A DNA stretch of 64,000 nucleotides from Anaeromyxobacter diazotrophicus (GTDB lineage: Bacteria; Myxococcota; Myxococcia; Myxococcales; Anaeromyxobacteraceae). Both the position numbers and the translations under genes were made by a program. Positions 19,937 through 37,476 of this stretch are shown piece by piece. Below the pieces are notes generated by a model. That model saw only the letters and a list, made by a program, of their open reading frames with translations, made no database searches and was not told the origin of the DNA. The stretch spans positions 124,001 through 188,000 of the forward strand of contig NZ_BJTG01000004.1 in assembly GCF_013340205.1 (NCBI RefSeq). Direction: 5' to 3'. The stretch's first letter is position 1. Each line of letters begins with the position of its first letter.

Positions 19937-19948
19937 GGGGGAGGGCGC

Positions 19949-21169
19949 GTGGACTGGCAGCGGCACGAGGCGGAGCCGGCGGCGGGCGAGGGCGCGCGGC
20001 GCGGGCGGGAGCGGCGGGCGCTCGGGCTCGTCCTCGCCGTCGCGCTCGTGGCGGCGCTGGCAGGGGTGGCCCTGCTCCTCGCCGCCCGCCACCGCCGCGA
20101 GGCGGGGGAGCGCGACCGGCTGGCACGCGCGGCGGAGCGCGGGCCGGCGGTGCTGGTGGCGCGCGCCGAGCTGCCGAGCGGCGCGCGGACGGTGACCCTG
20201 CCCGGCGACGTGCGCGCCTTCTGGCAGGCGACCCTCTACGCCAAGGTGAACGGGTACGTGCAGGAGATGAGGGTCGACAAGGGCCAGGCGGTGAAGAAGG
20301 GCGAGGTGCTGGCCCGCATCGCCTCGCCCGAGACCGACCAGCAGGTGCGCGCCGCGCGCGCCACGCTCGAGGTCCGCCGGCGAAACGCGGCGCGCGCCGA
20401 GCGCCTGGCGCCGCACGGCGTGGTGTCGCGGCAGGAGCTCGACCAGGCGCGCGCCGATCTGGGCGTGGCGCAGGCCGACGCCCGCCGCGTCGCGGCGCTG
20501 CAGGAGTACCAGGTGCTGCGCGCCCCCTTCGACGGCGTGGTGACCGCGCGCTACGTCGACCCCGGCGCGCTCCTCACCGCCAGCGCCACCGGCGCGCCGG
20601 TGGTCGACGTGGCCTCCCCGGGCCGCGTCCGCATCCTCGTCTACGTGGGCCAGGACGTGGCGCCGTTCGTGAAGCTCGGCGACCCGGCGGAGGTGGCGCT
20701 CGACGCCGTGCCCGGCGTCCGGATCGCGGGGCGGGTGGCCCGCCTCGCCGACGCGCTCGACCCGCGCACGCGCTCCATGCTGGTGGAGGTCTGGCCGGAG
20801 GGCGAGGCGCCGCTGCGGCTCGTGCCGGGGCTCTTCGTCCACGTCGCGCTGCGCCTCTCGATGCCGCCCTTGCCGTCGATCCCCTCGCAGGCGCTGGTGG
20901 CGCGCGGGGCGAAGCTGCAGGTGGCGCTGGTGCAGGGCGGGAAGCTCCACTTCGTGGACGTCGAGCCGGGCGTCGACGACGGCCGCCGCATCCAGGTGCG
21001 GCGCGGCCTCGCGGGCGGCGAGGTGGTGGCGCTCTCGCCCCCGAGCGACCTCGGCGAGGGCGCGCCGGTGGAGGCGCTGACGCCGGAGCAGCAGCAGGCC
21101 GCGCAGCCAGGCCGGACCCCCGGCGGGGGAGGGAGCGCGCGGGCGGCGCGCGCCCCGCTCGATCGCTGA
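19949..21169 (+). CDS. RND efflux periplasmic adaptor (membrane fusion protein)
   Basis: 406 residues from a GTG at 19949 with GGGGGAGGG just ahead. One N-terminal membrane anchor is at ~25-46. It is followed by a lipoyl half-motif (GYVQEMRVDKGQAVKKGEVL), a coiled hairpin with AxLExRRRNAARAERL, a second lipoyl half (LRAPFDGVVTARYVDPG) and beta-barrel segments. It bridges the inner-membrane pump to an outer-membrane channel. It is coupled to the preceding permease gene by a 12-bp gap. The C-terminal 40 residues are low-complexity Gln, Gly and Ala. Confidence 0.9.
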   Translation: MDWQRHEAEPAAGEGARRGRERRALGLVLAVALVAALAGVALLLAARHRREAGERDRLARAAERGPAVLVARAELPSGARTVTLPGDVRAFWQATLYAKVNGYVQEMRVDKGQAVKKGEVLARIASPETDQQVRAARATLEVRRRNAARAERLAPHGVVSRQELDQARADLGVAQADARRVAALQEYQVLRAPFDGVVTARYVDPGALLTASATGAPVVDVASPGRVRILVYVGQDVAPFVKLGDPAEVALDAVPGVRIAGRVARLADALDPRTRSMLVEVWPEGEAPLRLVPGLFVHVALRLSMPPLPSIPSQALVARGAKLQVALVQGGKLHFVDVEPGVDDGRRIQVRRGLAGGEVVALSPPSDLGEGAPVEALTPEQQQAAQPGRTPGGGGSARAARAPLDR

Positions 21170-21257: not shown

Positions 21258-22772
21258 TTGGACCCTTCCCCCACGCCCGCGCCGCTGAACGACCTCCCGC
21301 TCTCGCTCGACGGCGCCCACGCGCTGGCGCGGCTCCGGGCGCACCTCGCCGCCGCGCTCGAGGCGGCAGGGCTCGGGACCTTCTCCCTCGACCCCGGGAG
21401 CTTCGAGGGCGAGTGGGATCCGCGGGCGGCGGAGGTCCTCGGCGCGTCCACCTGGCGAGGCCGCCTGCTCGACCACGCCGCGCCCGAGGAGGAGGCGCCG
21501 CTGCGCCGCGCGTTCGGAGCCCTGCTGGGGCCCCGCGCGGCCGGGACCGTCCATCTCGACTTCAAGGTCGCCGGCGCCAGCGCCCGGCCGCGCTGGTGCT
21601 CGCTCGCCGGCGCGCTGGCGCCGCGCGAGGGCGGCGGCCTGACGGTGGTGGGGACGCTGCAGGACGTCACCGAGGCGCGCCTGTCGCGGGAGCAGCGGCA
21701 GCGCCTCGAGGCGGAGCTCCGCGAGGCGAACCAGCGGCTGGCGCGCTCCCAGGCCCTCCTCGACGCGATGATCGAGCACGCCCCGGTGGGCATCGGCCTC
21801 GTCGACCGCGAGCTGCGGTTCCAGCGGGTGAACGAGCGGCTGGCGGCCATCAACGGCCTCGCGGCCGCGGAGCACGCCGGGCGCACGCCGCGCGAGCTGC
21901 TGCCGGACCTGCCGCTCGACGCGTGGGAGGCGGCCTGGCGGCGCGTCCTCGAGACCGGGGAGCCCGCCACCGGCCTCGAGCTCTCGGGCCGCACGCCCGC
22001 GAGCGACGAGCTGCGCTACTGGAAGGAGGCGCTGTACCGGGTCCGCGCCGGGGAGGAGACGCTCGGGGTCGGGGTGCTGGTCGAGGACGTCACCGACACG
22101 AAGCGCCGCGAGGAGATGCAGCGCCTGCTCGTGGGCGTGGTCGGCCACGACCTGCGCAACCCGCTCTCCACCTTCCTCAACGGACTCCACGTCCTGCGCG
22201 CCGAGCCGGCGCTGAGCGAGCGGGGCCGCCGCACCCTCGACCGCATGCGGAACGCGGCGGCGGGGATGGACCGGCTGGTGAGCGACCTCCTCGACTACAC
22301 GCGCATCCGGGCCGGGCAGGGCATCCCGGTGAGCCGGTTGCCCGCGCGCCTGCGCGACGTCGTCGTCCCGCTGGTGGAGGACGCGCGGCTCGCCCACCCC
22401 GATCGCTCGATCGTGTGCTCCGGCCAGGGGGACGACGCCGGCCGCTGGGACCCCGACCGCCTCGGCCAGGTGGTCTCGAACCTGCTCACCAACGCCCTCA
22501 AGCACGGGGCGCGGGGGGAGCCGATCGAGGTGCGGTGGCGGGGCGAGGAGCGCGCGGTCGTGCTGGAGGTGGCGAACGGCGGCCCGCCCATTCCCCCCGA
22601 GCTCCTCGCGCGGCTGTTCGAGCCGATGACGCAGGGCGAGGCCCGGCGCGACGGGGTGGGGCTCGGGCTGTTCATCACGCGCGAGGTGGTGCGGGCGCAC
22701 GGCGGCCGGGTGGTGGCGCGCTCCTCGCCGGAGCTGGGCACCGTCTTCGAGGTGGAGCTGCCGAGGGGCTGA
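21258..22772 (+). CDS. PAS-domain histidine kinase, soluble
   Basis: 504 residues from a TTG at 21258; no in-frame ATG or GTG fits better, so the start is uncertain. Residues ~20-145 and ~165-285 look like two PAS folds, each ending in a DVT(E/D) segment that leads into a coil. The HisKA box VVGHDLRNPLS carries H297. The ATPase domain (390-500) has the N-box NLLTNALKHG and the GVGLGLFI loop. There is no membrane segment and no receiver. No response regulator gene is adjacent on this strand. The gene is convergent with another kinase at 22836. Confidence 0.85.
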   Translation: MDPSPTPAPLNDLPLSLDGAHALARLRAHLAAALEAAGLGTFSLDPGSFEGEWDPRAAEVLGASTWRGRLLDHAAPEEEAPLRRAFGALLGPRAAGTVHLDFKVAGASARPRWCSLAGALAPREGGGLTVVGTLQDVTEARLSREQRQRLEAELREANQRLARSQALLDAMIEHAPVGIGLVDRELRFQRVNERLAAINGLAAAEHAGRTPRELLPDLPLDAWEAAWRRVLETGEPATGLELSGRTPASDELRYWKEALYRVRAGEETLGVGVLVEDVTDTKRREEMQRLLVGVVGHDLRNPLSTFLNGLHVLRAEPALSERGRRTLDRMRNAAAGMDRLVSDLLDYTRIRAGQGIPVSRLPARLRDVVVPLVEDARLAHPDRSIVCSGQGDDAGRWDPDRLGQVVSNLLTNALKHGARGEPIEVRWRGEERAVVLEVANGGPPIPPELLARLFEPMTQGEARRDGVGLGLFITREVVRAHGGRVVARSSPELGTVFEVELPRG

Positions 22773-22835: not shown

Positions 22836-24284
22836 CTACGGCCCGTTGCCCGCGCTGGGCTCGAGCCGCAGCCGGAACGAGAAGGTGCTGCCGCGGCCGA
22901 CCTCGCTCTCGACCGACACCTTCCCCCCGTGCGCCTCCACGATCTCGCGCACGATCATGAGCCCGAGCCCCGTGCCGGCGATGTCGCGCGGCAGGTCGCC
23001 CGCGCGCGCGTAGGGCCGGAAGAGGTGGGGGAGGGCGCTGGCGGGGATGCCGCGCCCGGTGTCCTGCACCGCCGCCTCGACGGCGTCGCCCTCGAGCCGG
23101 AGCCGCACCAGCACCCGGCCGCCCGAGGGCGTGAACTTGAGCGCGTTCGAGACCAGGTTCGACAGGACCTGCCCGATGCGGCGGCGGTCGCCGAGCACGC
23201 GGGCCTGCGCCGCCGCCGGCTCGAACCGCAGCTCCAGCCGGCTCGCCTGCGCGACCGCCTGGTACTCGTCGACCACGCGGCGGACGAGCGCGTTGAGGTC
23301 GATGGGCGCCGGCTCGAGCTGCACCCCGGCGCTCTCCATCCGGGCGAGATCCAGGAAGTCGTTGATCATCGAGACGAGCTCGCGGATGCGCGCCTCGATG
23401 CGCTCCACGTCGGTGCGCGCCTCGGGCGGGAGCGCCCCGCGCCGGCCGGCCAGCAGCCACTCGACCCGCATCAGCATGGCGCTGAGCGGCGAGCGGAGGT
23501 CGTGCGCCACCATGGCGTAGAAGTCCACCCGGCGCGTCTCGACCCGTCGCTGCTCCGTCACGTCCCGCAGGGACACCGCCAGGGAGACGCCCCCCTCCTC
23601 CACGAGCCGCTTCACCGCCGGTGCGTAGTGCCGGGCGCCCAGTGCCAGGTCCGGCAGGTGGGCGGGCGCCGCGCCGAGCCCCGCGTCGGACTGGAGCGGG
23701 AGCTCGGGGGCGCACTCCGCGAGCGGCCGGCCGAGCAGCGGCCGGTCGAGGGCGGCGAACAGGCGCGCCGCCTCCTCGTTCGCGAACACCACCCGCCCGG
23801 CGGGGTTCACGAGCAGCACCGCCTCGGGGAGCGACGCGAGCAGGGTCCGGAGCGAGGCCTCGGCCTCCTCGGCCCGCCGCCGCAGGGCGCGCGAGCGCGC
23901 CAGCGCGTCCACCCGCGCCCGCAGCTCCTCGGGCGCGAAGGGCTTGGCGAGGAAGTCGTTGGCGCCGGCGCGCAGCCCCTCCACCACCTGCGCCGTCTCG
24001 CGGTGCGCGGTGAGGAGCAGCACCGGCGTCTCGGCGGTGGCCGGCGAGGCGCGGAGGAACTTGCAGACGTCGATGCCGGAGACGCCCGGCATCATCCAGT
24101 CGAGCACCAGCACCTCGGGCTGGCCGCCGGCCGCGAACCGCTCCAGCACCGCCGCGCCGTCGGAGAAGCTCTCGACCCGGTGCTGCGGCTCGAGCACGCG
24201 GCGCGCGTGGTCGCGCTCGAGCCCATTGTCGTCGACCACCCACACCCAGGGTAGATCGGCCGGCCTGGCGTCGGGAGCGGGCAC
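22836..24284 (-). CDS. REC-PAS hybrid histidine kinase
   Basis: 482 residues from a GTG at 24284, chosen because it immediately precedes the receiver domain (VWVVDDN) and leaves room for the divergent promoter. The receiver spans 12-125 with D18-D19, acceptor D62 and K114 (LAKPF). A PAS-like region is at 145-250. The HisKA box AMVAHDLRSPLS carries H261, and the ATPase domain ends around 475 with GTGLGLMIV. With an N-terminal receiver and no membrane helix, it is likely a relay kinase inside a phosphorelay. It is divergent from the chemosensory operon across 135 bp, so it may exchange phosphoryl groups with that pathway; this is inference. Confidence 0.85.
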   Translation of the reverse strand: MPAPDARPADLPWVWVVDDNGLERDHARRVLEPQHRVESFSDGAAVLERFAAGGQPEVLVLDWMMPGVSGIDVCKFLRASPATAETPVLLLTAHRETAQVVEGLRAGANDFLAKPFAPEELRARVDALARSRALRRRAEEAEASLRTLLASLPEAVLLVNPAGRVVFANEEAARLFAALDRPLLGRPLAECAPELPLQSDAGLGAAPAHLPDLALGARHYAPAVKRLVEEGGVSLAVSLRDVTEQRRVETRRVDFYAMVAHDLRSPLSAMLMRVEWLLAGRRGALPPEARTDVERIEARIRELVSMINDFLDLARMESAGVQLEPAPIDLNALVRRVVDEYQAVAQASRLELRFEPAAAQARVLGDRRRIGQVLSNLVSNALKFTPSGGRVLVRLRLEGDAVEAAVQDTGRGIPASALPHLFRPYARAGDLPRDIAGTGLGLMIVREIVEAHGGKVSVESEVGRGSTFSFRLRLEPSAGNGP

Positions 24285-24419
24285 CGCCCACGTCGTGTAG
24301 CGCGGGCTGGCCCGCGCGCCAAGCGCGCCGCGGGGCCCAAGGGGGGGCCGCGCGAAGCGTGGGAGCGGCGGGGGGCCGGGAGTAAGTTCACCCACCGAGC
24401 GGTCAGCGCGGAGGCGTGC

Positions 24420-24797
24420 GTGGCGGACGTCCTGGTGGTGGACGACAGCAAGGTGATGCGCGACATGATCGTCGCGTGCCTGCGCGCGCGGGCGGGCCTC
24501 GAGTTCGTCCACGCCGCGAGCGGGCTCGAGGCCATCGAGCGGCTGTCGCTGCACCCGTTCGACCTCGTGCTGCTCGACCTCAACATGCCCGACATCGGGG
24601 GCATCGAGGTGGTCGAGTTCATCCGGGCCCAGGACAAGCTCCGCGCGCTGCCGATCGTGGTCATCACCACGCGGGGCGACGAGGCGTCGCGCGCCCGGGC
24701 CCTGGCGGCCGGCGCCGACCGCTTCCTGACGAAGCCGTTCACGCCGGAGGCGCTCGTCCGCGAGGTGAGCGGGCTGCTCGGTGCCGCGCGCCCATGA
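24420..24797 (+). CDS. cheY: CheY-like single-domain response regulator
   Basis: 125 residues from a GTG at 24420 with GGAGG upstream. The receiver fold is complete: D8 and D9 bind metal, D53 (LLDLNMP) is the acceptor, T83/T84 and K105 (LTKPF) complete the site. There is no output domain, as in CheY. It is the first gene of the chemosensory operon and its stop overlaps the cheA start (ATGA). It probably takes phosphate from CheA and carries the signal to a target, which may be the HEAT-repeat protein in this operon. Confidence 0.92.
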   Translation: MADVLVVDDSKVMRDMIVACLRARAGLEFVHAASGLEAIERLSLHPFDLVLLDLNMPDIGGIEVVEFIRAQDKLRALPIVVITTRGDEASRARALAAGADRFLTKPFTPEALVREVSGLLGAARP

Positions 24798-26818
24798 CCG
24801 GCCGGGTCGACCTGGGCGAGTTCGTCGCGGCCTTCCTGGTGGAGGCGGAGGAGCTCCTGCGCGCCGCCTCGAGCCAGCTGCTCGCCGTCGAGGCGGAGGC
24901 GAAGCAGGGCCGCGCGCGCCCGCGCGCCGTCCGGGAGGCCTTCCGCGCCACCCACACGCTGAAGGGGCTCGCCGCCATGGTGGGCCAGGAGCCCATCGTG
25001 GGGCTGGCGCACCGGATGGAGGCGGTGCTGCGAACCGCGGACGCGGCCGGGGGGCGGCTCGACCCGGCCGCGCTGGACGTCCTCCTCCGCGGGGTCCGCG
25101 AGCTCGAGCGGCAGGTGAGCGCCGTCGGGAAGGGCGGGGCCGCCCCCGAGCCCCCCCGCGCGCTCGTCGAGCGGCTCCAGGGGCTCGAGGAGGAGGCGCC
25201 CGCCGCGGCCGCGGCGGCGCCCGCGCGGCTCGATCTGGACCCGGCGCTGGCGGCCAAGCTGTCAGGCTACGAGCGCGATCAGCTCCTCGCCGCGCTCGGC
25301 GAGGGGCGGCGCGCGCTGCGGGTCGACTTCACCCCCTCGCCCGCCCGCGCCGCCGAGGGGCTCAACATCACCACCGTCCGGGAGCGGGTGGCCGGCGTGG
25401 CCGAGATCGTGAAGGTCCTGCCGCGCTCGGTGCCCGCCAGCGACGAGGCGCCCGGGGGGATCGCCTTCGCGCTCCTGCTGGTCGCCGCCGGCTCCGACGA
25501 GGAGGTGGCGGCGGCCGCCGGGGTCGCGCCCTCGGCGCTGCTCCCCATCGGGCGGACCCGAGGCGAGGCCGCCCCGCCGCAGCACGCCCCCGAGCTCGAG
25601 CTCGAGCTCCCGGAGGTGGCCGCCGGCGCCGGCGTGGTGCGGGTCGAGGTGGCGCGGCTCGACGAGGCGCTGGAGGGGCTGTCGGCGCTGGTGGTGACGC
25701 GCTCGCGGCTGCGCGGGGCGGCCGCCCGGCTGGCGGAGCGGGGCGCCGACGTGCGCGAGCTCGACGGCGTGCTGGCGGAGGCGGGGCGGCAGCTGCGCGA
25801 CGTGCGCCGCGCCTTCCTGCGGGTGCGGATGGTGCGGGTGACCGAGGTGCTCGACCGGCTGCCGCTGCTGGTCCGCGGGCTGCAGCGCGCCACCGGGAAG
25901 CGCGTGCGCCTGGAGATGGACGCGGGGGAGGCCGAGCTCGACAAGGGCGTGGCGGAGCGCCTCTTCCCGGCGCTGGTGCACCTGGTCCGGAACGCGGTGG
26001 ATCATGGGCTCGAGGACGCCGCCGGGCGGCGCGCGGCCGGGAAGCCCGAGGAGGGCGCCATCACCGTCTCGTGCTTCGAGCGCTCCACCAGCCAGCTCGA
26101 GCTGACGGTGGCGGACGACGGCGCCGGCATCGACCGCGAGGCGGTGGCGCGCCGCGCCGGCGCGCCGCCGCCGGAGACGGATGCGGCGCTGCTCGACCTG
26201 CTCTGCCGGCCCGGGCTCTCGACGCGGCCGGCGGCCAGCACCACCAGCGGACGCGGCATGGGCATGGACATCGTGCGCCGGGTGGTGGTCGAGGAGCTCG
26301 GCGGCGAGCTGTCGCTCCGCACGGTGCGGGGGCAGGGGAGCGCCTTCACCCTGCGGGTGCCGCTCACCATCTCGATCGTCGACGCGTTCTCGCTCGTCGC
26401 CGGCGGCCAGCGGTACGTGGTGCCCGTCTCGGCGGTGGAGGAGATCCTGGAGCTCGATCGGGCGCGGGTGGTCGAGGGGCCTTCGCCCGGGCGCGGACGC
26501 GGCGTGGGGCTCGTCGAGCGCCGCGGCGAGGCGGTGCCGCTCCTCGATCTGTGCGCCGCGCTCGGTGCGCCGCGGGCCGGCCCGCCCGCCGGCCAGGCGC
26601 TGCTCGTGCGGCGCGGCGGCGACCCGGTGGCGTTCGCGGTGGACAAGATGGTGGGGCAGCAGGAGGTGGTGCTCCGGCCGCTGCTGGACCCGCTGGTGCG
26701 CCGGACCGGCGTCGCGGCCGCCACCGACCTGGGTGACGGGAGGCCGACCCTGGTGCTCGACCTCGTCGCGCTGGGCGGCGCGGCCCTGACGGCGGGGCCC
26801 GGGGAGGCGATCGCGTGA
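24794..26818 (+). CDS. cheA: Chemotaxis histidine kinase CheA
   Basis: 674 residues. The HPt domain has acceptor H54 in RATHTLKGLA. Residues ~155-270 form an unassigned alpha/beta stretch, possibly a P2-type response-regulator-binding domain. The dimerisation helices lie at ~285-375. The ATPase domain shows NAVDHG near 400, DDGAGID near 440 and GRGMGMD near 486. The C-terminal 530-674 is a CheW-like coupling domain. It phosphorylates CheY and CheB in response to receptor arrays. It overlaps cheY by 4 bp at the start and cheW by 4 bp at the end, so translation is coupled. Confidence 0.93.
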   Translation: MTGRVDLGEFVAAFLVEAEELLRAASSQLLAVEAEAKQGRARPRAVREAFRATHTLKGLAAMVGQEPIVGLAHRMEAVLRTADAAGGRLDPAALDVLLRGVRELERQVSAVGKGGAAPEPPRALVERLQGLEEEAPAAAAAAPARLDLDPALAAKLSGYERDQLLAALGEGRRALRVDFTPSPARAAEGLNITTVRERVAGVAEIVKVLPRSVPASDEAPGGIAFALLLVAAGSDEEVAAAAGVAPSALLPIGRTRGEAAPPQHAPELELELPEVAAGAGVVRVEVARLDEALEGLSALVVTRSRLRGAAARLAERGADVRELDGVLAEAGRQLRDVRRAFLRVRMVRVTEVLDRLPLLVRGLQRATGKRVRLEMDAGEAELDKGVAERLFPALVHLVRNAVDHGLEDAAGRRAAGKPEEGAITVSCFERSTSQLELTVADDGAGIDREAVARRAGAPPPETDAALLDLLCRPGLSTRPAASTTSGRGMGMDIVRRVVVEELGGELSLRTVRGQGSAFTLRVPLTISIVDAFSLVAGGQRYVVPVSAVEEILELDRARVVEGPSPGRGRGVGLVERRGEAVPLLDLCAALGAPRAGPPAGQALLVRRGGDPVAFAVDKMVGQQEVVLRPLLDPLVRRTGVAAATDLGDGRPTLVLDLVALGGAALTAGPGEAIA

Positions 26819-27264
26819 GCCGCGCGCTGCACGTGCTGTTCCGGGTCGGCGCCGCCGAGTACGCGCTGCCCGCCGCCGAGGTGCTCCAGATGGAGTCGTA
26901 CGCCGGCGCGACGCCCGTCCCCGGCGCGCCCGCCTTCGTGGCGGGGGTGGTGCAGGTACGAGGCCGGGTGCTGCCGGTGCTGGACCTGCGGGCGCGCTTC
27001 GGGCTCGCGCCGGCGGAGCCCTCGCTCGATCGCCGGCTCGTGGTGGCGCAGCACCGGGAGCGCCCGGTGGCGCTGCTCGTCGACAGCGCGCGCGAGGTCC
27101 TGACGCTGGAGGCGGACGACTTCCGGCCGCCGCCGCCCATGGTGTCCGAGGAGGCCGAGGGCCTCGTCAAGGCGGTGGCGCAGGTCGGCCCCCGCCTCGT
27201 CCTGATGCTCGATTTCCCGAAGCTCATCGGTGAGGAGGCGCTCGATGCCGCGCAGCAGGCCTGA
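26815..27264 (+). CDS. cheW: CheW coupling protein
   Basis: 149 residues from a GTG at 26815 that overlaps the cheA stop. The CheW fold is recognised by [38 protein letters not shown] and the closing VLMLDF. It links the receptor to CheA. The reading frame extends 20 bp past the start of the chemoreceptor gene, a further overlap that keeps the operon tight. Confidence 0.92.
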
Positions 27265-29752
27265 CACGAAGAAGGCGGGCCGCGGGGCCGCGCCGCGCCG
27301 TGGCGCCTCGCCCGCGGGCCCCGCCGCCCCTTCCAGCCGGGGCGGGGAGCTGTCGGCGATGCGGGACGCCACGCAGCGGCTCATCGCGGGCCGCAACGAG
27401 CAGGCCGCCGCCGGCGAGCAGCTGCGCGCCGGCATGGAGGGGATCGCGGCGGGCGTGGAGGAGTCCGCGGCCTCGGCGCAGGAGCTGGCGCGCGCGCAGC
27501 GCGGCGTGGCCGAGACGAGCGCGGCGCTCCAGCAGGGCTCCGACGCGAACGCCGCCTCCGCCCGGGAGCTCGCCGCCTCGGTGGCGGGGGTGCGGCAGGA
27601 CGCGGAGCGGCTCGCCGCCTCGGCGGAGGGGAACGCGGCCACGGTGGAGGAGCTGGCGCGCTCGGTCAAGGGCGTCGCCGGCAACGCCGAGGAGCTGGCC
27701 GCGTCGAGCGAGGAGCTGCTGGCGTCGGCGACGCAGATGGGCGCGACCGTGCGCGAGCTCGGGTCGCAGGGCGAGGCGGGGGCGGCCGCGACCGAGCAGG
27801 TCGCCGCCACCGCCCAGCAGATGTCGAAGGGGCTGGGCCGGCTGGCGGCCGACGCCAGGACCGCCGGGGAGCGGGTGGCGAGCGTCGCCGCCGGCACGGC
27901 CAGGGTGGGCCGCGGCGTGGACGAGGTGGCGCGCGACGCCTCCTCGGCCGCCGCGGCGGTGGAGGAGAGCTCCGCCGGCGCGGAGGAGCTGGCGCGGTCC
28001 ATCAAGGCGGTGGCGGAGCACGCCCGCGGGCTCGAGGCGTCGGCGGCCTCGAGCGCGGCCGGGCTGACCGAGGTCGCCGCCTCGGTGGAGCAGGTGACGG
28101 CCAACGCGGAGCGGACGGCCTCCTCCGTGGAGGCGAACGCGGCCACCGTCGAGCAGCTGGCCCGGAGCGCCGCCGGGACCGCCCAGGCGGTGGACGAGGT
28201 GAGGAAGCTCGCCGAGTCGAGCGCGGCCGGCGCCGCCCAGCTCGGCGAGTCGGCCCGGCGCATCGCGCAGATCGGCGAAGAGGCGCGGGCGGTCGGGGAG
28301 CACGCGGCGGCGGCGGCCCGGGCCGGCGGGGCCACCGTCCAGCGCTCGATGAAGGGGTTCGGCAAGCTGCGCCAGGCCATCGGCGGCTCGGCCGCGGTCA
28401 TGAAGGAGATGGGCGAGCGGGCGGAGCAGATCGGCGACATCGTGCAGACCATCAACGTCATCGCCGACCGGACCAACCTCCTCTCGCTCAACGCCAGCAT
28501 CGAGGCCGCCCGCGCCGGCGAGCACGGCCGCGGCTTCGCCGTGGTGGCGGAGGAGATCCGGGCGCTCGCGGACCGCGCGGCGGCCCAGAGCGGCGACATC
28601 GCCAAGATCGTGCGCGGGCTCCAGGCGGTCGTGCGCGAGGCGCTGGAGGCCACCTCCGAGGGCGTGCGCGCCGCGGACGAGGGGAGCGCCCAGGTGGAGG
28701 AGGCGGAGCGGGCGCTCTCGACCATCCTGGAGGGCGTCGAGTCGCTGACCGGGTCCGTGCGCCAGGTGACCGCGGCCGGCGCGGAGCAGGCGGCGGCGGT
28801 GCGGACCGTGACCGAGGGCACCTCGCGCGTGAGCGAGCAGGCGCGGCTCATCGCGCGCGCCGCCGCCGAGCAGGTGGACGCGACGCAGGCGCTCGCCCGC
28901 AACGGCGGCGAGCTGCGGCAGATGGCGCGGCAGACCACGCAGGCGCTGGCCGAGCAGGCGCGCACCATGAAGGAGCTGGTGCGGCAGAACGCGGGGGTGG
29001 CCACCGCCGCCGAGCAGGTCTCGCGCGCGGCCCAGGAGCAGGCGGCGACCTCGGCCCAGCTCGCGAAGGCCATCGTCGAGGTGCGCAACGTCACGCAGCG
29101 CACCGCCACCGCGATGGGCGAGCAGAGCCGCACCGTGGCGGAGGTCGCGGGGGCGGCGCAGGAGATGGCGGGGCTGACCGAGGCCACCCTGCGCGGGCTG
29201 GCGGAGCAGGCGCGGGGCGCGGCCGAGGTGGCGAAGGCGATGGACGACACCCGCCGGCAGGCGGCGCAGACCGCGCGGGCGCTGGCCGAGCAGGGGCAGG
29301 GGACGAAGCAGGTCGAGACGGCGGCCCGGGACGTCGCGCGGCTCGCGGCGGAGGTGACGCGCGCCACCGCGGAGCAGGGAAAGGCCGCCGGGAACATGGC
29401 CCAGGCGGCGGAGGAGGTGCGGCGGGTGGCCCGCCAGACGGCGCTCGCCGTGTCGGAGCAGGACGAGGCGATCCGGAGCTTCGGGGAGGTGGTCTCGCGG
29501 CAGGCGGTGGGCCTCGCCAGCCTCGCCCGCTCGAACGGGGAGCAGGCCGTCGCCACCGAGCAGCTCGCGCGCGGCCTGGCGCAGATGCGCGGGCAGGTGC
29601 GGGAGATCGCGACCACGCTCTCCTCGCAGGCGCGCGGGTCCCAGGGCATGGCGGACGAGATGGACCAGATGGCCGACGGCCTGGTGCGGCTCGGCGCGGC
29701 GCGCCGGCGCGGCCGGCGCGGCGCGGCCGCAGAGCCGGGGGAGGGCGCGTGA
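27245..29752 (+). CDS. Ultra-long soluble methyl-accepting chemoreceptor
   Basis: 835 residues from the ATG at 27245, with GAGGAGG upstream inside cheW. The conserved signalling tip ([20 protein letters not shown]) starts at residue ~406, near the exact middle, and is followed by [15 protein letters not shown]. On each side about 390-400 residues are almost wholly helical heptads rich in Ala, Glu, Gln and Val. There is no membrane segment, no HAMP and no recognisable sensor domain; residues 1-40 and the last 20 are basic and low-complexity. Ordinary receptor arms have far fewer heptads, so this hairpin would be very long. It is probably a cytoplasmic receptor for the adjacent CheA and CheW, with repeats such as VEELARS and ANAATVE pointing to internal duplication. 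Confidence 0.9.
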
Positions 29753-32085
29753 ACCGGCCCCTCCCGCTCGGGCTGTCGCAGGACGACCAGCGCCGGCTGG
29801 GCGAGGTGGAGGCGCTCGCCGGGCGCGGGGCGGTGCCCGAGCTGGTGCAGCGCCTCTCCGACCCGAGCTGGGCGGTCCGGCGCGGCGTCGTCGACGCGCT
29901 GGCGAGGCTGGGAGATCCCGCCGTGGAGCCGCTCTGCGCCGCGCTCGCGGGGGACCGGGGGGACGAGGCGCTCCTGGCGGCCGCCGTCGACGCGCTCGCG
30001 GCCAGCCGCGGCGAGGTCGACGGCCCGGTCGGCCGGCTCGCCGAGCACGCCGACCCGCACGTGGTGGCCGACGCGGCGCAGATCCTGGGCCGGCGCCGCA
30101 GCGGGAAGGCGGTGCCGATCCTGACCCGCCTCGCCGCGCACGCCGACGACAACGTGGCGGTGGCGGCCCTGGAGGCCCTGGGCCGCATCGGCGGCACGGC
30201 GGCGGTCGACGCGCTCCTCTCCACGGTGGCCGGGGGCAACTTCTTCCGGACCTTCCCGGCGCTGGAGGTGCTCGGACGCAGCGGGGATCCGCGCGCGATC
30301 GCGCCGCTCGCCAGGCTGCTCGACAGCACCTTCTACGCCCCGGAGGCCGCGCGCGCGCTCGGACACACCGGCCTCGCCGCGGCGGTCCCGCCGCTGGCGG
30401 CCCAGCTCCACCGCGGTCCGGAGGCGCTGGTGCGCGCCGCCGCCGTCGCCCTGGCCGACTTGCACGACGCGCAGCGCCGGCAGTACGGCTCGGGGCAGGG
30501 CGCGGAGAAGGCGCTCCGGTCGGCCGCGCTCCCGCAGCTGGCCGCGAGCCGGCTGGCGCAGTCCGTCCCCGGCGCCACCCCCGACGAGCAGCGCGCGCTG
30601 GCGCGCGTGCTCGGCTGGCTCGGGTCGCCGGAGGCGAGCGCGACGCTGCTCGGGCTGCTCGAGGTCGCGCCCGAGCCGGCGGCCGAGGGCCTGCGCTCGG
30701 TCGGGCACGACGCCGATCGGCAGCTCGGGGAGGCGGTCCGCCTCGGCGACAGCGCCCGCCGGAAGCTGCTCCTGCCCCTGCTGGTGGGGCGGGCGCACGC
30801 GCTGGAGCACGCCCTGCTCTGCCTCGACGACCCGGCGCCCGAGGTCCGCGCCGCGGCCGCCGAGGTGCTGAGCAGCCTGCGCGAGCCCGCCGCGGTCCCC
30901 GTGCTCTTCGCGCACCTGGGCGACCCGGACCTGGGCGCCGCGCGGGCCGTGGTGGGGGCCGTCGAGTCCATCGCCAGCGCCGAGACCGAGCAGCTCGCGC
31001 TGGCGGCGGCGCGCTCGCCCGACCCGCGCGTCCGCCACGCCGCGCTGGGCGTGGTCGCCTACTTCGGGTTCTCCGGCGGGCTGCAGGTCATGGAGGAGGC
31101 GCTCGCGGCCGGGGACGAGCGCCTGCGCGACGCCGCGCTGGCAGGCCTGCCGTACCTGGACGAGCCGCGGGCGCAGGAGCTGCTGCTCGCCGCCGCGGAG
31201 CACCCGTCGCCGCGCACCCGCGCCTCGGCCATGCGCGCGCTGGGGCAGACCGCCGGCGCGCCGGCCGCGCTGGCGGCCCTGCGGCGCGGCGTCGGCGACC
31301 CGGACCCGTGGGTCGCGTACTACGCGTGCCAGGCGCTGGGGAAGCAGCGGGACGAGGCGGCCGCGGGGCAGCTCGTCGCCGCGGCCCGCCACCCCTCGGG
31401 CCAGGTGCGGGTCGCCGCGGTGGAGGCGCTGGCGCACCTCGCCTCGGAGGCCGCGGGCGCGGCGCTGCGGGCCGCGGCGAGCTCGAGCGACCAGGACATC
31501 AGGCGCGCCGCGCTGCAGGGCCTCGGCGCGTCGCGCGCGCCGGGCGCGCTCCCGACGCTGCTCGCCGCCGCCGGCGCGGGCGACCGCGCCACGCGGGTGG
31601 TGGCCCTGACCGCGCTGGCCGACCGCGACGAGCCGGAGGTGCTGCCGGTGCTGGCGCAGGCCGCGGCCGACCGGGACGAGGAGGTGCGCGCGGCGGCCGT
31701 GGCGCGCCTGGCCGAGTGGCGCAACGCCGGAGGGACGCACGTCCTCATCGGGCTGCTCGGCAACCCCGCCGCGCGCGAGCGCGCCCTCGAGGCGCTCTCC
31801 CTGCCGACGCCGGGGCGCATCGCGGGGCTCCTCTCGGCGCTCGAGGTGGCCGACGGCGAGCTGCCGCCGCTGCTCGTCTCGGCCCTGGCGCGCATGGATC
31901 GTCCCGACGCGCGCGCCGCCATCGTGAGCGCGGTCGAGCTGGGTGGCCCGGCCACCCGGGCCGCGGCGGTGGAGGCGGTGGGCGCGCTCGACCTCGCCGA
32001 CGGGCGGGAGGCGCTGGCGCGGGCCGCGGAGCGTGACCCCGACCCGGGCGTGCGCCGGCTCGCCGCGGCCGCCCTCGCTCGCTGA
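29749..32085 (+). CDS. HEAT-repeat protein of the chemosensory operon
   Basis: 778 residues from a GTG at 29749 that overlaps the receptor stop. Nearly the whole protein consists of HEAT-like (PBS-lyase type) helical pairs, about 22-25 by eye, with recurring patterns such as DPxVRxAAxxALxxL. There is no enzyme domain, signal peptide or membrane segment. HEAT solenoids act as protein-binding scaffolds. Myxococcus xanthus Che7 includes a HEAT-repeat protein (Cpc7) under chemosensory control, so this may be a comparable output or scaffold; homology to Cpc7 has not been tested here. Its place between the receptor and cheR, with overlaps on both sides, argues for a core function. Confidence 0.88.
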
Positions 32086-32918
32086 TGCCGCACCCGGTGA
32101 TGCCCGCGCTCACGGTCCATCCCCAGGTGCTGAGCCTCCTGGCCGGCCTCGTCGAGGACCGCGCCGGGCTGCACTACGGCCTCGACGACCGCGCGCTGCT
32201 GGCGGAGAAGGTGGTCCCGCGCGCGCTCGACCGCGGCTTCGGCTCGCTCCTCGACTACTACTACTTCCTCCGCTACGACCCGGCGGGCGACGCCGAGCTG
32301 GACCGGCTGGTGGAGGCGCTCTGCGTCCACGAGAGCTACTTCTTCCGCGAGGTCCAGCCCCTGCGGGTGGCGGTGGAGGAGGTCCTCGCCCCGGCGATCC
32401 GGGCCGGCCGCCGGCCGCGGGTGTGGTGCGCGGCGGCGGCGCAGGGCGAGGAGCCTCTCACGCTGGCGATGCTGCTCGACGAGCGCGGGTGGCTCGGGCA
32501 GGTCGAGCTGGAGGCGACCGACGTCAGCCTCCGCGCGCTGGAGCGGGCGCGGGCGGGCGTTTTCGGCCAGCGCGCCCTGCGCGCGCTGCCGGCGGGCGTG
32601 CTGGGCCGGTGGCTCGAGCCGCAGGGGCAGGGGGCGGTGGCCCGGCGCGAGCTGGTGGAGGCGGTGCGCTGGCGGCGCCTCAACCTGATGGACGCGGCGG
32701 CGGTGCGCGCCATGGGGCCGGTCGAGCTCCTGCTCTGCCGGAACGTCATCATCTACTTCGCGGACGAGACGGTGCGGCGCCTCGTGCGCAGCCTGGGCGA
32801 GGCGCTGGCGCCCGGCGGGGCGCTGGTGGTCGGCGCCTCCGAGTCGCTCCTCCGGTTCGGCAGCGCGCTCGCCTGCGAGGAGCGGGGCGGGGTCTTCCTG
32901 TACCGGGCGGCGCGATGA
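32085..32918 (+). CDS. cheR: Chemoreceptor methyltransferase CheR
   Basis: 277 residues from the ATG at 32085, which overlaps the HEAT gene stop (TGATG). The N-terminal helical domain ends in HESYFFRE at 82-89. The SAM-binding domain has AAAAQGEEP around 116-123, where most family members carry a Cys-Ser/Thr-Gly pattern, and the LCRNVIIYF motif near residue 215. It methylates glutamates on the chemoreceptor with S-adenosylmethionine. There are no TPR repeats or other fused domain. It overlaps cheB by 4 bp. Confidence 0.92.
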   Translation: MPHPVMPALTVHPQVLSLLAGLVEDRAGLHYGLDDRALLAEKVVPRALDRGFGSLLDYYYFLRYDPAGDAELDRLVEALCVHESYFFREVQPLRVAVEEVLAPAIRAGRRPRVWCAAAAQGEEPLTLAMLLDERGWLGQVELEATDVSLRALERARAGVFGQRALRALPAGVLGRWLEPQGQGAVARRELVEAVRWRRLNLMDAAAVRAMGPVELLLCRNVIIYFADETVRRLVRSLGEALAPGGALVVGASESLLRFGSALACEERGGVFLYRAAR

Positions 32919-33946
32919 GCGGCGCGCGCGTCAAGGTGCTGGTGGTGGACGACTCCGCCTTCGCGCGCAAGGTGGTGCGGGAGACGCTCGCGGCCGAGCC
33001 GGACCTGCAGGTGGTGGGCTCGGCCCGCGACGGGCTCGAGGCGCTGGAGAAGATCGCCGAGCTGGCGCCCGACGTCGTCACCCTGGACCTGAGCATGCCG
33101 GGCCTGGACGGCCTGGGCGTGCTGGGGTCGCTGGCCGGGCGGCCGAAGCCGCGGGTGGTGGTGGTGAGCACGGTCGAGAGCGACAGCGAGCGCGGGCTGG
33201 CGGCGCTCGAGGCGGGCGCGGTCGAGCTGGTGCGCAAGCCGACCGCGCTCGCCACCGGGCGGCTGCTCGGGATGGCGGGCGAGCTCGTGCGCGCGGTGCG
33301 GGCGGCGGCCAGCGCGCGCAGCCCGGAGCCCTGGGAGGTGTTCGAGGCGCCGCTGGCCGCGCCGCCGACCGCGCCGCGCCGGCGGCTGGTGGTGCTGGGG
33401 GCGTCCACCGGCGGCCCGCAGGCGGTGACCCGGCTCTTGAAGGCGCTGCCCGGCGACTTCCCGGCGCCGGTGGCGGTGGTGGTGCACCTCCCGCCCGGCT
33501 ACACCGGGCCGTTCGCGGAGCGGCTCGACCGCGAGTGCGCGCTGCGGGTCCGCGAGGCCGAGCCGGGGCTGGCGCTCGTGCCGGGGCTGGTGGTCGTGGC
33601 GAAGGCGGGGGTGCACCTCAAGGTGCGCGCCGGCGCGCGCGGCGAGCTGACGGCCGTGCTCGATCCCGCCCCGGCCGACGCGCTGCACCGGCCGGCGGTG
33701 GACCAGCTCTTCGCGAGCGCGGCCCGGGCGACCGGCGCCGCCACGCTGGCGGCCGTCCTGACCGGGATGGGCCAGGACGGGCTGGAGGGCGCGCGGCTGC
33801 TGCGGGCGGCGGGGGCCGACGTGCTCACCGAGACCGAGGCGAGCTGCGTCGTCTACGGCATGCCGCGCGCGGTGTGGGAGGCGGGGCTCGCCACCGCCGA
33901 GGCGCCGCTCTCCCGCATGGCGGCCGAGATCCTCGCGCGGCTGTAG
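32915..33946 (+). CDS. cheB: Chemoreceptor methylesterase/response regulator CheB
   Basis: 343 residues from the ATG at 32915. The receiver domain covers 5-125 with acceptor D58 (VTLDLSMPG). The esterase domain (155-340) has the catalytic triad S164 in GASTGGP, H191 in VVHLPPG and D288 in TGMGQDG. It removes methyl groups from receptor glutamates once phosphorylated by CheA. It is the last gene of the operon, followed by a probable intrinsic terminator. Confidence 0.93.
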   Translation: MSGARVKVLVVDDSAFARKVVRETLAAEPDLQVVGSARDGLEALEKIAELAPDVVTLDLSMPGLDGLGVLGSLAGRPKPRVVVVSTVESDSERGLAALEAGAVELVRKPTALATGRLLGMAGELVRAVRAAASARSPEPWEVFEAPLAAPPTAPRRRLVVLGASTGGPQAVTRLLKALPGDFPAPVAVVVHLPPGYTGPFAERLDRECALRVREAEPGLALVPGLVVVAKAGVHLKVRAGARGELTAVLDPAPADALHRPAVDQLFASAARATGAATLAAVLTGMGQDGLEGARLLRAAGADVLTETEASCVVYGMPRAVWEAGLATAEAPLSRMAAEILARL

Positions 33947-34374: not shown

Positions 34375-34403
34375 TTGACTCCGGCTGGCCAGGCGCGTAT
34401 TTG
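34375..34403 (+). promoter_or_regulatory. Sigma-70-like promoter of the marR-efflux operon
   Basis: TTGACT (34375-34380) is a near-consensus -35 box, spaced 17 bp from TATTTG (34398-34403), a weak -10 box. The transcript would start near 34410, only about a dozen bases before the ATG, leaving no room for a normal ribosome site. Confidence 0.5.
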
Positions 34404-34428
34404 CGAGCCGCAACAATTGCGTATGCAA
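34401..34428. promoter_or_regulatory. Two TTGC...GCAA dyads overlapping the marR promoter and start
   Basis: TTGCGAGCCGCAA (34401-34413) and TTGCGTATGCAA (34417-34428) are two inverted repeats centred about 16 bp apart, covering the -10 box, the likely start site and the ATG. This layout fits autorepression by the MarR protein encoded at once downstream. Binding by this regulator is inferred. Confidence 0.5.
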
Positions 34429-34869
34429 GAATATCTCGGTCTCCTCATCGCCGCGGCGCGCAGCCGCATCAAGCAGGTGGTGCTCGCCCAGGTGGCGCAG
34501 TTCGGGCTGGCGCCGCAGCAGTTCTGGATGCTGGTCGCCCTCCGCGAGCACCCCGGGCTCTCGCAGGCGGCGCTCGCCGAGCGCGTCCGCGCGGACGCGC
34601 CGACGGTGAGCCGCACGCTCGCGGCGCTGCTCGAGCGCGGCCTGGTGCGCAGCGAGCCCGATCCCGAGGACCGGCGGCGGTCGTGCGTCTTCCTCACCCC
34701 GGCGGGCGAGCGGCTGGCGGGCGAGGTGGCGGCGGTGGCGGAGGGGGTCCGCAACGCCGTGGTGGACGGGATGAGCCCCGCCGAGCAGGCGACCGTGCGG
34801 CGGGGGCTGAAGCGCATCCTCGAGAACCTCGACCGGTACGAGGCGCAGGTGCGCGGGAGGCGGGCGTGA
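34423..34869 (+). CDS. MarR-family transcriptional regulator
   Basis: 148 residues. The ATG at 34423 lies within an inverted repeat and has no Shine-Dalgarno sequence. The winged helix-turn-helix has recognition helices at ~45-70 (LSQAALAERVRADAPTVSRTL) and a wing at 80-95 (DPEDRRRSCVFLTPAG). Such proteins are dimeric repressors released by small ligands, often phenolic or drug-like. It is the first gene of a tripartite efflux operon and overlaps the tolC-like gene by 4 bp, so it most likely controls the pump and itself. Confidence 0.9.
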   Translation: MQEYLGLLIAAARSRIKQVVLAQVAQFGLAPQQFWMLVALREHPGLSQAALAERVRADAPTVSRTLAALLERGLVRSEPDPEDRRRSCVFLTPAGERLAGEVAAVAEGVRNAVVDGMSPAEQATVRRGLKRILENLDRYEAQVRGRRA

Positions 34870-36200
34870 ACGCGATGACCCTGGTGCTGCTGCTCGCGTC
34901 GGCGCAGGCAGGGCCGCAGCCCCAGCCGCAGCCGCCGGCCCTCCCCACCCTGACCCTCGCCGACGCCGAGCGGAGCGCGCACGCGCACCAGCCGCAGCTC
35001 CTCCAGGCCCGCTCCCTCTCGAGCGCGGCCTCGGCGCGGGCGGACGAGGCGCGCGCGCCACTCCTGCCGCAGGTGCAGGGGACCGCCGCCTACGAGCGCT
35101 CGACCGGCAACTACGTGGCCCGCCCCGGCGCGCTGCCGAGCACGGTGGCCAGGACCGTCCCGAGCCCGAGCTGGGCCACCAGCGACTACTTCAACTTCGG
35201 GCTCACCGCCTCGCAGCTGGTGTGGGACTTCGGCCAGTCGAGCGGCCGCTGGCGCGCGGCCCAGGCCTCCGCCGGCGCCCAGCGCGAGAGCGAGTACGCG
35301 ACCGAGAGCCAGGTGCTGCTCACGGTGCGGGCCGCCTACTTCAACGCGCGGGCCCAGCGCGACCTGGTGCGCGTCGCCCGCGAGACGCTCGCGAACCAGG
35401 GGGCGCACCTCAAGCAGGTGGAGGGGTTCGTGCGGGCCGGGACGCGGCCCGAGATCGACCTCCTGCAGGCGCGCACCGACCGCGCCAACGCCCAGGTGCA
35501 GCTCATCAACGCCGAGAACGCCTACGCCACCGCGCGGGCGCAGCTCAACCAGGCGATGGGCGTCGCCGGCTCCACCGAGTACGAGGTCGGGAGCGACACC
35601 CTGCCGCCGGTGGACGGCGAGGACGCCGCGGTCGACGCGCTCCTCCCCGAGGCGGAGCGGAACCGGCCCGACCTCCTCGCGCTGGAGGAGCAGGCGCGGG
35701 CGCAGGAGCTGACGGCGACCGCGCTGCAGGGCGGCTACGGGCCGGCGCTGGGCGTCTCCACCGGCTTCACCGACGCGGGGCCCTCGCTCGGCTCCACGGT
35801 GTGGAACTGGAACGCGACCGCCACCCTGACCTGGAACCTGTTCCAGGGCGGGCTCACCCGCGCCCAGGTCGAGGAGGCGCGCGCCAACACCTCGGCCGCG
35901 CGTGCCCAGGCCGAGGTGCTGCGCCTCCAGCTCCGGGTCGACCTGGACCAGGCGCGCCTGGCGGTGCGCGCGGCGAAGAGCTCGCTCGGCGCCGCCGGCG
36001 AGGCGCTGGTGAACGCGCGGGAGCGCCTGCGCCAGGCGGAGCGGCGCTACCAGATGGGCGTGGGGAGCCTCATCGATCTCGGCGACGCGCAGCTCGCGGC
36101 CACCAGCGCCGCCGCGCAGCTCGTCCAGGCCGAGTACAACCTGTCCACCTCGCGCGCGCAGCTCCTGCGCGCGCTGGGGCGCGAGGTGTCGCGTGGCTGA
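34866..36200 (+). CDS. TolC-family outer-membrane efflux channel
   Basis: 444 residues from a GTG at 34866 that overlaps the marR stop; an ATG nine bases later (34875) is an alternative. A short signal peptide is followed by a Pro/Gln-rich stretch. Two OEP repeats are visible, each with a strand pair and long helices: VWDFGQSSGRWRAA in the first and WNLFQGGLTRAQVEEARAN in the second, plus the typical YQMGVGSLIDLGDAQ near the end. It forms the outer-membrane tunnel of the adjacent pump. It overlaps the adaptor gene by 8 bp. Confidence 0.9.
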   Translation: MNAMTLVLLLASAQAGPQPQPQPPALPTLTLADAERSAHAHQPQLLQARSLSSAASARADEARAPLLPQVQGTAAYERSTGNYVARPGALPSTVARTVPSPSWATSDYFNFGLTASQLVWDFGQSSGRWRAAQASAGAQRESEYATESQVLLTVRAAYFNARAQRDLVRVARETLANQGAHLKQVEGFVRAGTRPEIDLLQARTDRANAQVQLINAENAYATARAQLNQAMGVAGSTEYEVGSDTLPPVDGEDAAVDALLPEAERNRPDLLALEEQARAQELTATALQGGYGPALGVSTGFTDAGPSLGSTVWNWNATATLTWNLFQGGLTRAQVEEARANTSAARAQAEVLRLQLRVDLDQARLAVRAAKSSLGAAGEALVNARERLRQAERRYQMGVGSLIDLGDAQLAATSAAAQLVQAEYNLSTSRAQLLRALGREVSRG

Positions 36201-37476
36201 GACCGTGAACCGTCGCGGGCGCTGGGCGCTCGCCGTCGTCGCCGTGGCGCTCCTCGCCGCGGGGGCGGTGTGGCTCCTGCGCGGGCGCGGCGCGGACCAG
36301 CCCAAGGGTGGGGCGGCCGCGGCCGGCGCCCAGGCCCAGCGGCCGGTGCCGGTGGCGGTCGCCGTGGCGGCCCGCCGCGACGTGCCGATCTGGCTCGAGG
36401 GCCTCGGCAACGTGGTCGCCTACCAGACCGTCACCGTGAAGCCGCAGGTGGACGGGCGACTCGACCAGGTGCTCTTCCGGGAGGGGCAGGCGGTCCGCAA
36501 GGGCGACGTGCTGGCCCAGATCGACCCGCGGCCGTTCCAGGCGCAGCTCCGGCAGGCGGAGGGGGCGCTCGCCCGCGACCAGGCGCAGCTCAGGAGCGCG
36601 AAGCTCGACCTCGAGCGGTACCGCTCGCTGGCGGCGGAGAAGCTCGTCCCGCAGCAGCAGGCGGACCAGCAGATCGCGGTGGTGGGGCAGCTCGAGGGCG
36701 CGGTGCACATCGACGACGCGAACATCGCCACCGCCCGCCTCAACCTCGACTACGCGCGCATCACCGCCCCCATCGACGGCGTCACCGGGATCCGGGTGGT
36801 CGACCCGGGCAACGTCGTGCACGCCTCGGATCCGAACGGCCTGGTGGTGGTGACCCAGCTCGACCCCATCGCCGTCCTCTTCACGCTGCCGCAGGACCAG
36901 CTCACCGCCATCGCCTCCGCGCAGGCGCGCGGCCGCCTGGCGGTGGACCTCTACGCGCGGGACGGCACGACGCTGCTCGGCTCGGGACAGCTCCTCGTCA
37001 TCGACAACCAGATCAACCAGGCGACCTCCACCGTGCGGCTCAAGGCGGTGGCCCCGAACCCGAAGCGCGCGCTCTGGCCGAACCAGTTCGTGAACGCGCG
37101 GCTCCGGCTCGGCACGCGCGAGGGCGCGCTCGTCCTGCCCGCCTCGGCGGTGCAGCGCGGGCCGAACGGGACCTTCGTCTACGTCGTCGGGGCGGACAGC
37201 ACCGTCTCGCCGCGCCCGGTGGAGGTCGAGGCCACCGTGGGCGACCTGGCGGTGCTGGCGAAGGGGGTGGCGGAGGGGGAGCGGGTGGTGACGGAGGGGC
37301 AGAACCAGCTCAGGCCCGGCGCCAAGGTGGCGCCGCGCGAGCCGGGCAAACCGGGCGGCGCCGGCGCGCCGGCCGCGGCCGCGGGCCCCGGCCCGGGGTC
37401 GGGCTCGGCCGCGGGCGGGCAGGGCCCGGCGGGCGGCGACGGGGGCGGGCGCGCGGCGGGGGCGTCGAGCCGATGA
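36193..37476 (+). CDS. mdtA: MdtA-like RND adaptor protein
   Basis: 427 residues from a GTG at 36193. One membrane anchor spans ~12-28. The lipoyl halves (KPQVDGRLDQVLFREGQAV and ITAPIDGVTGIRVVDPGN), the coiled hairpin between them, the beta-barrel domain (AVLFTLPQDQLTAI) and the membrane-proximal domain are all present and resemble MdtA. The last ~50 residues are Gly, Ala and Pro rich. It couples the channel to the two permeases that follow. It overlaps the mdtB-like gene by 4 bp. Confidence 0.9.
   Translation: MAETVNRRGRWALAVVAVALLAAGAVWLLRGRGADQPKGGAAAAGAQAQRPVPVAVAVAARRDVPIWLEGLGNVVAYQTVTVKPQVDGRLDQVLFREGQAVRKGDVLAQIDPRPFQAQLRQAEGALARDQAQLRSAKLDLERYRSLAAEKLVPQQQADQQIAVVGQLEGAVHIDDANIATARLNLDYARITAPIDGVTGIRVVDPGNVVHASDPNGLVVVTQLDPIAVLFTLPQDQLTAIASAQARGRLAVDLYARDGTTLLGSGQLLVIDNQINQATSTVRLKAVAPNPKRALWPNQFVNARLRLGTREGALVLPASAVQRGPNGTFVYVVGADSTVSPRPVEVEATVGDLAVLAKGVAEGERVVTEGQNQLRPGAKVAPREPGKPGGAGAPAAAAGPGPGSGSAAGGQGPAGGDGGGRAAGASSR

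Follow-up and report, generated by a model that had tools for sequence, protein, structure and literature searches.

A giant Mcp7-type soluble chemoreceptor in a Che7-type operon of Anaeromyxobacter diazotrophicus

Mcp7 (MXAN_6962) is a chemoreceptor of M. xanthus, listed with 821 aa and described as soluble, with no transmembrane segment and no HAMP domain (PMC3945109, in part). The same source describes one or two mobile subpolar clusters of Mcp7 and its binding by CheW7. The Che7 system to which it belongs has been associated with a HEAT protein and with the coupling of aggregation to sporulation (PMC9040617, in part). A review, as far as its text was available, reports that this HEAT protein, Cpc7, binds CheY7 and affects development (PMC11514114). 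Chemoreceptors are commonly sorted by length, and the available part of the MiST3 description gives twelve classes, from 24H to 64H, the top class having 32 heptads per arm. According to Moine et al. (PMC3945109), the M. xanthus receptors belong to class 40H, with the exceptions of DifA and McpK.

The receptor considered here is encoded in a 64,000-nucleotide stretch of A. diazotrophicus DNA, referred to below as the window. A preliminary description had presented it as an 835-residue soluble chemoreceptor with a central tip, devoid of membrane, HAMP or sensor domains, and each of these points was borne out. The open reading frame was confirmed, an in-frame GTG at 27230 being able to add five residues. 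Its translation contains a single Pfam family above the curated cut-off, the MCP signalling domain PF00015 (residues 383-531), with an E-value of 8.5e-42 and 143.4 bits against a cut-off of 34.6, which makes it a member of the MCP family. At the curated Pfam cut-offs no HAMP, PAS, Cache or other sensor domain was found in the receptor, and reading the sequence revealed no long hydrophobic stretch. The tip glutamate, in the RAGE motif, is residue 426, preceded by 425 residues and followed by 409. The tip sequence is invariant among the relatives aligned, and in the surrounding region (residues 381-470) 62 of 90 positions are at least 97% conserved in 33 sequences. With its single PF00015 stretch, the protein is not a double receptor of the DosM type. 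DosM of Vibrio cholerae is also soluble and sits in a membrane-free array; it carries two signalling domains, one at each end, in contrast to the single mid-chain tip seen here.

Thirty loci of the same genome match PF00015, with a recognisable tip motif in 25 of them. By this genome-wide count, the window receptor has 410 residues past the tip, compared with 79-247 in the other 24. The upper value belongs to a receptor (L010, G000:C11:123531-124001) with an odd C-terminal tail, the usual length being 140-180.

Table 1 The chemosensory operon and the parts of its receptor. Positions are those of the window; residue numbers are those of the receptor.
Feature	Position	Strand	Evidence
CheY-type single-domain response regulator, 125 aa	24420..24797	+	PF00072 E 2e-28
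CheA kinase (Hpt, dimerisation, HATPase and CheW domains)	24794..26818	+	Pfam; ATG at 24794 overlaps the CheY stop
CheW coupling protein, 149 aa	26815..27264	+	PF01584 E 2.2e-33
Giant soluble chemoreceptor, Mcp7 type, 835 aa	27245..29752	+	ORF translation, Pfam, alignment of relatives
Predicted disordered basic N-terminal tail, residues 1-31, unconserved in the family	27245..27337	+	Charge, prediction
N-terminal arm, residues 46-400, indel-free heptads with 28-residue periodicity	27380..28444	+	Alignment, periodicity
Signalling tip region, residues 381-470, turn at Glu426	28385..28654	+	Pfam, conservation
C-terminal arm, residues 471-805, heptads in 28-residue units	28655..29659	+	Alignment, periodicity
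Glutamine ladder in the coiled-coil core, residues 515, 543, 571, 599, 627, 655, 683, 711, 739, 767 and 795	28787..29629	+	Alignment
HEAT-repeat protein, 778 aa, Cpc7 type	29749..32085	+	HEAT_2 E 1.1e-77, 10 stretches; start overlaps the receptor stop
CheR methyltransferase, 277 aa	32085..32918	+	PF01739 E 3.7e-38
CheB methylesterase with receiver domain	32915..33946	+	PF01339 E 4e-54, PF00072; ATG at 32915 overlaps the CheR stop

The receptor is not an orphan. It lies within a complete cluster, CheY-CheA-CheW-MCP-HEAT-CheR-CheB (Table 1), which is the che7 gene set of M. xanthus, and the window CheY shares 68-73% identity with the first gene of the clusters at four other loci (L035, L036, L040 and L041). 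A giant soluble MCP beside CheW and a HEAT protein, in the full gene order, is what identifies a Che7 system with its Mcp7. These sequence features identify the window receptor as the Mcp7 ortholog of a Che7-type system, Mcp7 being compared through its published length, domains and gene list as given in the partial source. The two proteins agree in being soluble, in the absence of HAMP and transmembrane segments, in their similar length and in their operon partners; the window copy differs by arms that are a few heptads shorter than those of most relatives and by its basic tails. As Mcp7 is a named protein, both the receptor family and the system are already known.

The operon is flanked upstream by an AcrB-type pump and a HlyD-type protein (16673-21169) and downstream by a MarR regulator, an outer-membrane efflux protein and a HlyD-type protein (34401-37476). 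Just upstream of CheY are a PAS histidine kinase (21258-22772, + strand) and a convergent hybrid kinase with receiver, PAS, HisKA and HATPase domains (22836-24554, - strand).

The length of the arms was assessed by a mechanical heptad walk, which gave 369 residues (52.7 heptads) for the N-terminal arm and 393 residues (56.1 heptads) for the C-terminal arm, in agreement with the earlier estimate that each could hold more than 50. No break occurs in the heptad repeat: averaged over the family, residues 46-805 gave a best period of 3.5000, with a coherence of 0.389, compared with at most 0.108 in 1000 permutations, and one phase (0.66-0.88 of 3.5) was common to six sub-segments of this region. 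By the same count, the total amounts to about 109 heptads in the window receptor, 91 in a relative from Gemmatirosa, 105 in L036 and 117-120 in most relatives. In residues of N/C arm, this corresponds to 411-418/407-421 in most relatives, 369/393 in the window, 362/372 in L036 and 320/316 in Gemmatirosa; L098 (432/407) is less symmetric than the other relatives. The lengths of the two arms thus match lineage by lineage, indicating that they change in concert. L036 and the window receptor are the two myxobacterial receptors with shortened arms, and both have arginine-rich tails at the shortened ends.

The arms are nearly twice as long as those of the longest catalogued class, 64H. As judged by heptad count rather than by class HMMs, the window receptor falls outside all MiST classes from 24H to 64H. 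The range of 12-22 heptads per arm that had been quoted for common classes was too narrow, since it leaves out the longer ones, up to the 32 of 64H in MiST3. The preliminary description would also have lost its point if the length had been common for a known class. The length is indeed the usual one for Mcp7 orthologs, but it matches none of the twelve MiST3 classes. The published 40H assignment of Mcp7 conflicts with the present heptad count and does not reflect arm length. Furthermore, the literature searched did not mention how long the arms of Mcp7-type receptors are (about 53-60 heptads each). With MiST3 ending at 64H and Mcp7 assigned to 40H, the length class is therefore apparently undescribed. 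The receptor thus belongs to a known family, and to a length class (about 53-57 heptads per arm in the window, as counted on the sequence) of which we found no description.

The arms are not only long but strictly conserved in length. No indel was observed over the 760 residues from 46 to 805, first in 33 and then in 52 distinct sequences, the relatives having about 46-60% identity to the window receptor. From the 33-sequence alignment L076 and L081 had been removed as identical sequences, both matching two Corallococcus loci in length and identity. It included L084 and L086 as long open frames with uncertain starts, which were trimmed for the tail-charge and heptad-walk analyses, the 52-sequence set and the final covariation work. 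Autocorrelation peaked at 28 and 56, indicating that both arms are made of 28-residue units, i.e. of four heptads. The ladder of core glutamines follows this spacing: the nine from 515 to 739, 28 residues apart, are present in 52/52 sequences, that at 767 in 30/52 and that at 795 in 48/52. In the Gemmatirosa receptor, all eight glutamines up to 711 are retained. In the Thermotoga maritima receptor 2ch7, a Glu-Gln pair aligns with the first one of the window receptor, which lies 88-89 residues from the tip, and the window arm thus resembles a methylation helix repeated outward. The alignment with 2ch7, a 309-residue fragment, covers residues 292-579, with the Glu-Gln in register. 2ch7 belongs to class 44H, with arms of about 22 heptads.

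The arms may therefore be seen as extended methylation helices, in which the 28-residue Glu-Gln unit found near the tip of canonical receptors would be repeated about 11 times, the core glutamine of each unit probably fixing the register. The methylation-site consensus occurs 7 times in the window arms, compared with 3.1 ± 1.7 in shuffled sequences, 13 of 500 shuffles scoring as high. This enrichment is modest, which leaves methylation along the arms a guess.

A genome of the same order (G049) provides receptors of intermediate size. It has 22 MCP loci, 16 of them with the tip motif; 14 of these have 139-172 residues past the tip, and the other two are the Mcp7 ortholog, with 426, and a receptor with 224 that bears the first four Glu-Gln repeats. 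The latter (L122, G049:C1:7130800-7131237) is of 64H size, and its Glu-Gln pairs, at 89, 117, 145 and 173 residues from the tip, form the start of the same ladder; it differs by its shorter extension past the tip and by 43 gaps in the alignment. It is possibly McpJ, which is given as a HAMP membrane receptor in a table of PMC3945109. In the window genome, a receptor with 225 residues past the tip and a similar tip sequence (L017) may be its counterpart. Arms of about 140, 224, 316 and 390-420 residues form a series which, together with the 28-residue unit, suggests lengthening by whole units, in both arms together.

We considered how such arms might be arranged. The preliminary description had proposed that they may fold back. 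Partway folding of the hairpin would produce an intramolecular bundle about half as long, which would fit an array of ordinary depth. The covariation data spoke for a different arrangement. In a set of 52 sequences (effective number 16.8), the register i+j=852, corresponding to a fold about residue 426, ranked first of 12 or 41 N-to-C registers in 9/9 settings. When the whole protein was scanned (up to 203 antiparallel registers), it ranked first in seven of the eight testable settings and third in the eighth, the setting 'a,d 3-letter' having no testable register. Up to about 260 residues from the tip the signal is maintained; it weakens in the outermost third (261-380), where the rank varies from 1 to 15 according to the setting. 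A smaller gap-free run with 32 sequences placed 852 first in 6/6 settings; L036, omitted from that run, was restored in the 52-sequence runs, and Gemmatirosa was included in earlier covariation runs only. A turn within the N-terminal arm at residue 268 (register 537) gave a peak (z 3.29) in a single covariation setting. Yet, in the six testable settings this register ranked 3, 9, 70, 86, 112 and 187, whereas 852 ranked first in five of them and third in one.

AlphaFold2 predictions pointed to helix but gave no trustworthy model of the shape. The full-length prediction (pLDDT 62.5) had the turn at the tip and extra breaks in both arms at one level, at 175-179 and 671-675, as expected if the hairpin folded back. 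When residues 100-752 were modelled (pLDDT 73.3), the breaks were at 266-270, near the turn of register 537, and at 582-584. The break had therefore moved by about 90 residues on trimming of the ends, and the tip turn was lost; the models were accordingly taken as evidence of helix and not of shape. Across the five sequences modelled, the predictions gave no information on overall shape. The heptad phase runs on through the break sites, and residues 176 (27770-27772; a core Asn conserved in relatives) and 673/676 (29261-29272), at the breaks of the full-length model, are among the strongest covarying inter-arm pairs of register 852. Taken together, these data make folding back very unlikely. 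Since covariation favours the tip-centred register over nearly all others, the N- and C-terminal arms most likely form one long hairpin, paired antiparallel in one register centred on Glu426.

The distribution of the receptor was studied in several samples. A scan of named genomes yielded four full-length relatives, two from Corallococcus and two from myxobacterial MAGs, and at the level of the order 50 of 145 genomes have the receptor arm. Among 117 genomes sampled evenly across the phylum, the HEAT protein was detected in 31 and the receptor arm in the same 31; a weak arm match in another genome (G105; 29%, E 5e-11) was rejected. Of 34 loci examined, 32 have all the genes in the full order; L091 and L100 are truncated by the end of the stretch or of the contig. 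Loci L071-L100 were picked through the HEAT protein, and its adjacency there is by construction; in 19/19 further loci, found through the arm alone, CheW and HEAT also adjoin the receptor. Within the Anaeromyxobacteraceae, the cluster is present in the window genome and absent from the 20 other genomes listed, including one other member of the genus, which points to gain by transfer or repeated loss. Outside the phylum, a whole Che7-type cluster with the same gene order is carried by a 1.04-Mb plasmid of Gemmatirosa kalamazoonensis (Gemmatimonadota; L101, NZ_CP007130.1, 423663-434910). Its receptor aligns with that of the window without gaps over residues 136-729, with 40% identity, and shares the glutamine ladder, but belongs to another phylum, is plasmid-borne and has about 45 heptads per arm. 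Matches from Lysobacter and Eubacterium (L037-L039) were rejected as members of the class; they cover residues 375-561 or 276-668 of the query only, and their frames end soon after the signalling region.

The constant company of the HEAT protein bears on its function. The earlier proposal was that it binds the arms. In its full form, the arms would be a docking platform, with the HEAT solenoid wrapping the rod and sensing or setting its state, and the receptor would be long because its partner is long. The HEAT gene lies directly 3' of the receptor in every locus examined, including the 19 found through the arm, the two proteins co-occur in the same 31 of 117 phylum genomes, and both are alpha-helical repeats of similar size. 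Yet, in the available text of the review, Cpc7 binds CheY7 (PMC11514114), and this makes the HEAT protein more likely an output component than a binder of the arms. A HEAT_PBS protein of Halobacterium (OE2401F), likened here by description, is similarly encoded in a che gene region and placed, in the part of its source consulted, after CheY, between CheY and the flagellum; it differs by its archaeal flagellar output. Furthermore, the Gemmatirosa C-terminal arm is 77 residues shorter than that of the window, but the match of its HEAT protein still spans residues 10-759 of 778; in this one case, the length of the HEAT protein does not track that of the arm. Docking along the arms is thus quite unlikely as the reason for their length.

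The basic tails of the window receptor brought up yet another role. Its first 30 residues carry a net charge of +6 and its last 25 one of +3, the two tails lying at one end of the hairpin; L036 has +6 in its last 25 residues. The distal ends might then bind the nucleoid, the arms bridging DNA and the kinase layer, as with FrzCD of M. xanthus, another soluble receptor, which is described in part of its literature as binding DNA through a basic N-terminal tail. FrzCD, however, has 417 residues and two HAMP domains, and it shares the basic N-terminal tail with the window copy only. Among 34 sequences, a charge of at least +4 in the first 30 residues was observed only in the window receptor and L035, the others ranging from -4 to +2, and nucleoid binding as a family trait was rejected on this ground. 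In addition, PMC3945109, as far as consulted, describes the M. xanthus Mcp7 clusters as subpolar and faster than those of FrzCD. We consider nucleoid binding highly improbable.

The reading that we regard as likely is that of a Che7-type receptor of giant length class, acting as a hairpin rod in its own clusters, tuned by CheR and CheB and signalling through CheY to the HEAT protein. Two hairpins would form a straight, dimeric four-helix rod of about 58 nm (390 residues, with a helix rise of about 0.148 nm per residue), and its tip would dock CheA and CheW. The length of this receptor fits no other receptor in the cell, and it would therefore assemble soluble clusters of its own. The CheR and CheB of the same operon would provide adaptation, and CheA would phosphorylate CheY, which would act on the HEAT protein as output carrier. 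As the receptor contains no sensor domain, the input may act on the arms, on the distal ends or through adaptation itself. It is conceivable, though unlikely, that sensing resides in the arms themselves. The receptor would then be a rod of about 60 nm with one core glutamine per four heptads, and would represent a separate giant class common to two phyla. Temperature, crowding or covalent modification along its length would shift the packing of this rod and thereby the kinase activity at the tip, in soluble arrays of unseen depth.

The expected mismatch with normal array geometry agrees with a review which, in the part available, states that one heptad more or less bars an E. coli receptor from the main array. 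The membrane arrays of V. cholerae measure 25 and 38 nm. With arms nearly twice those of the longest class and apparently paired, any array that the Mcp7-type receptor builds should look unlike those imaged. Receptor length is thought to decide which receptors share an array, and indel-free arms spanning 760 residues are a natural extreme test of this idea. They would equally test over what distance a coiled coil can pass on a conformational signal.
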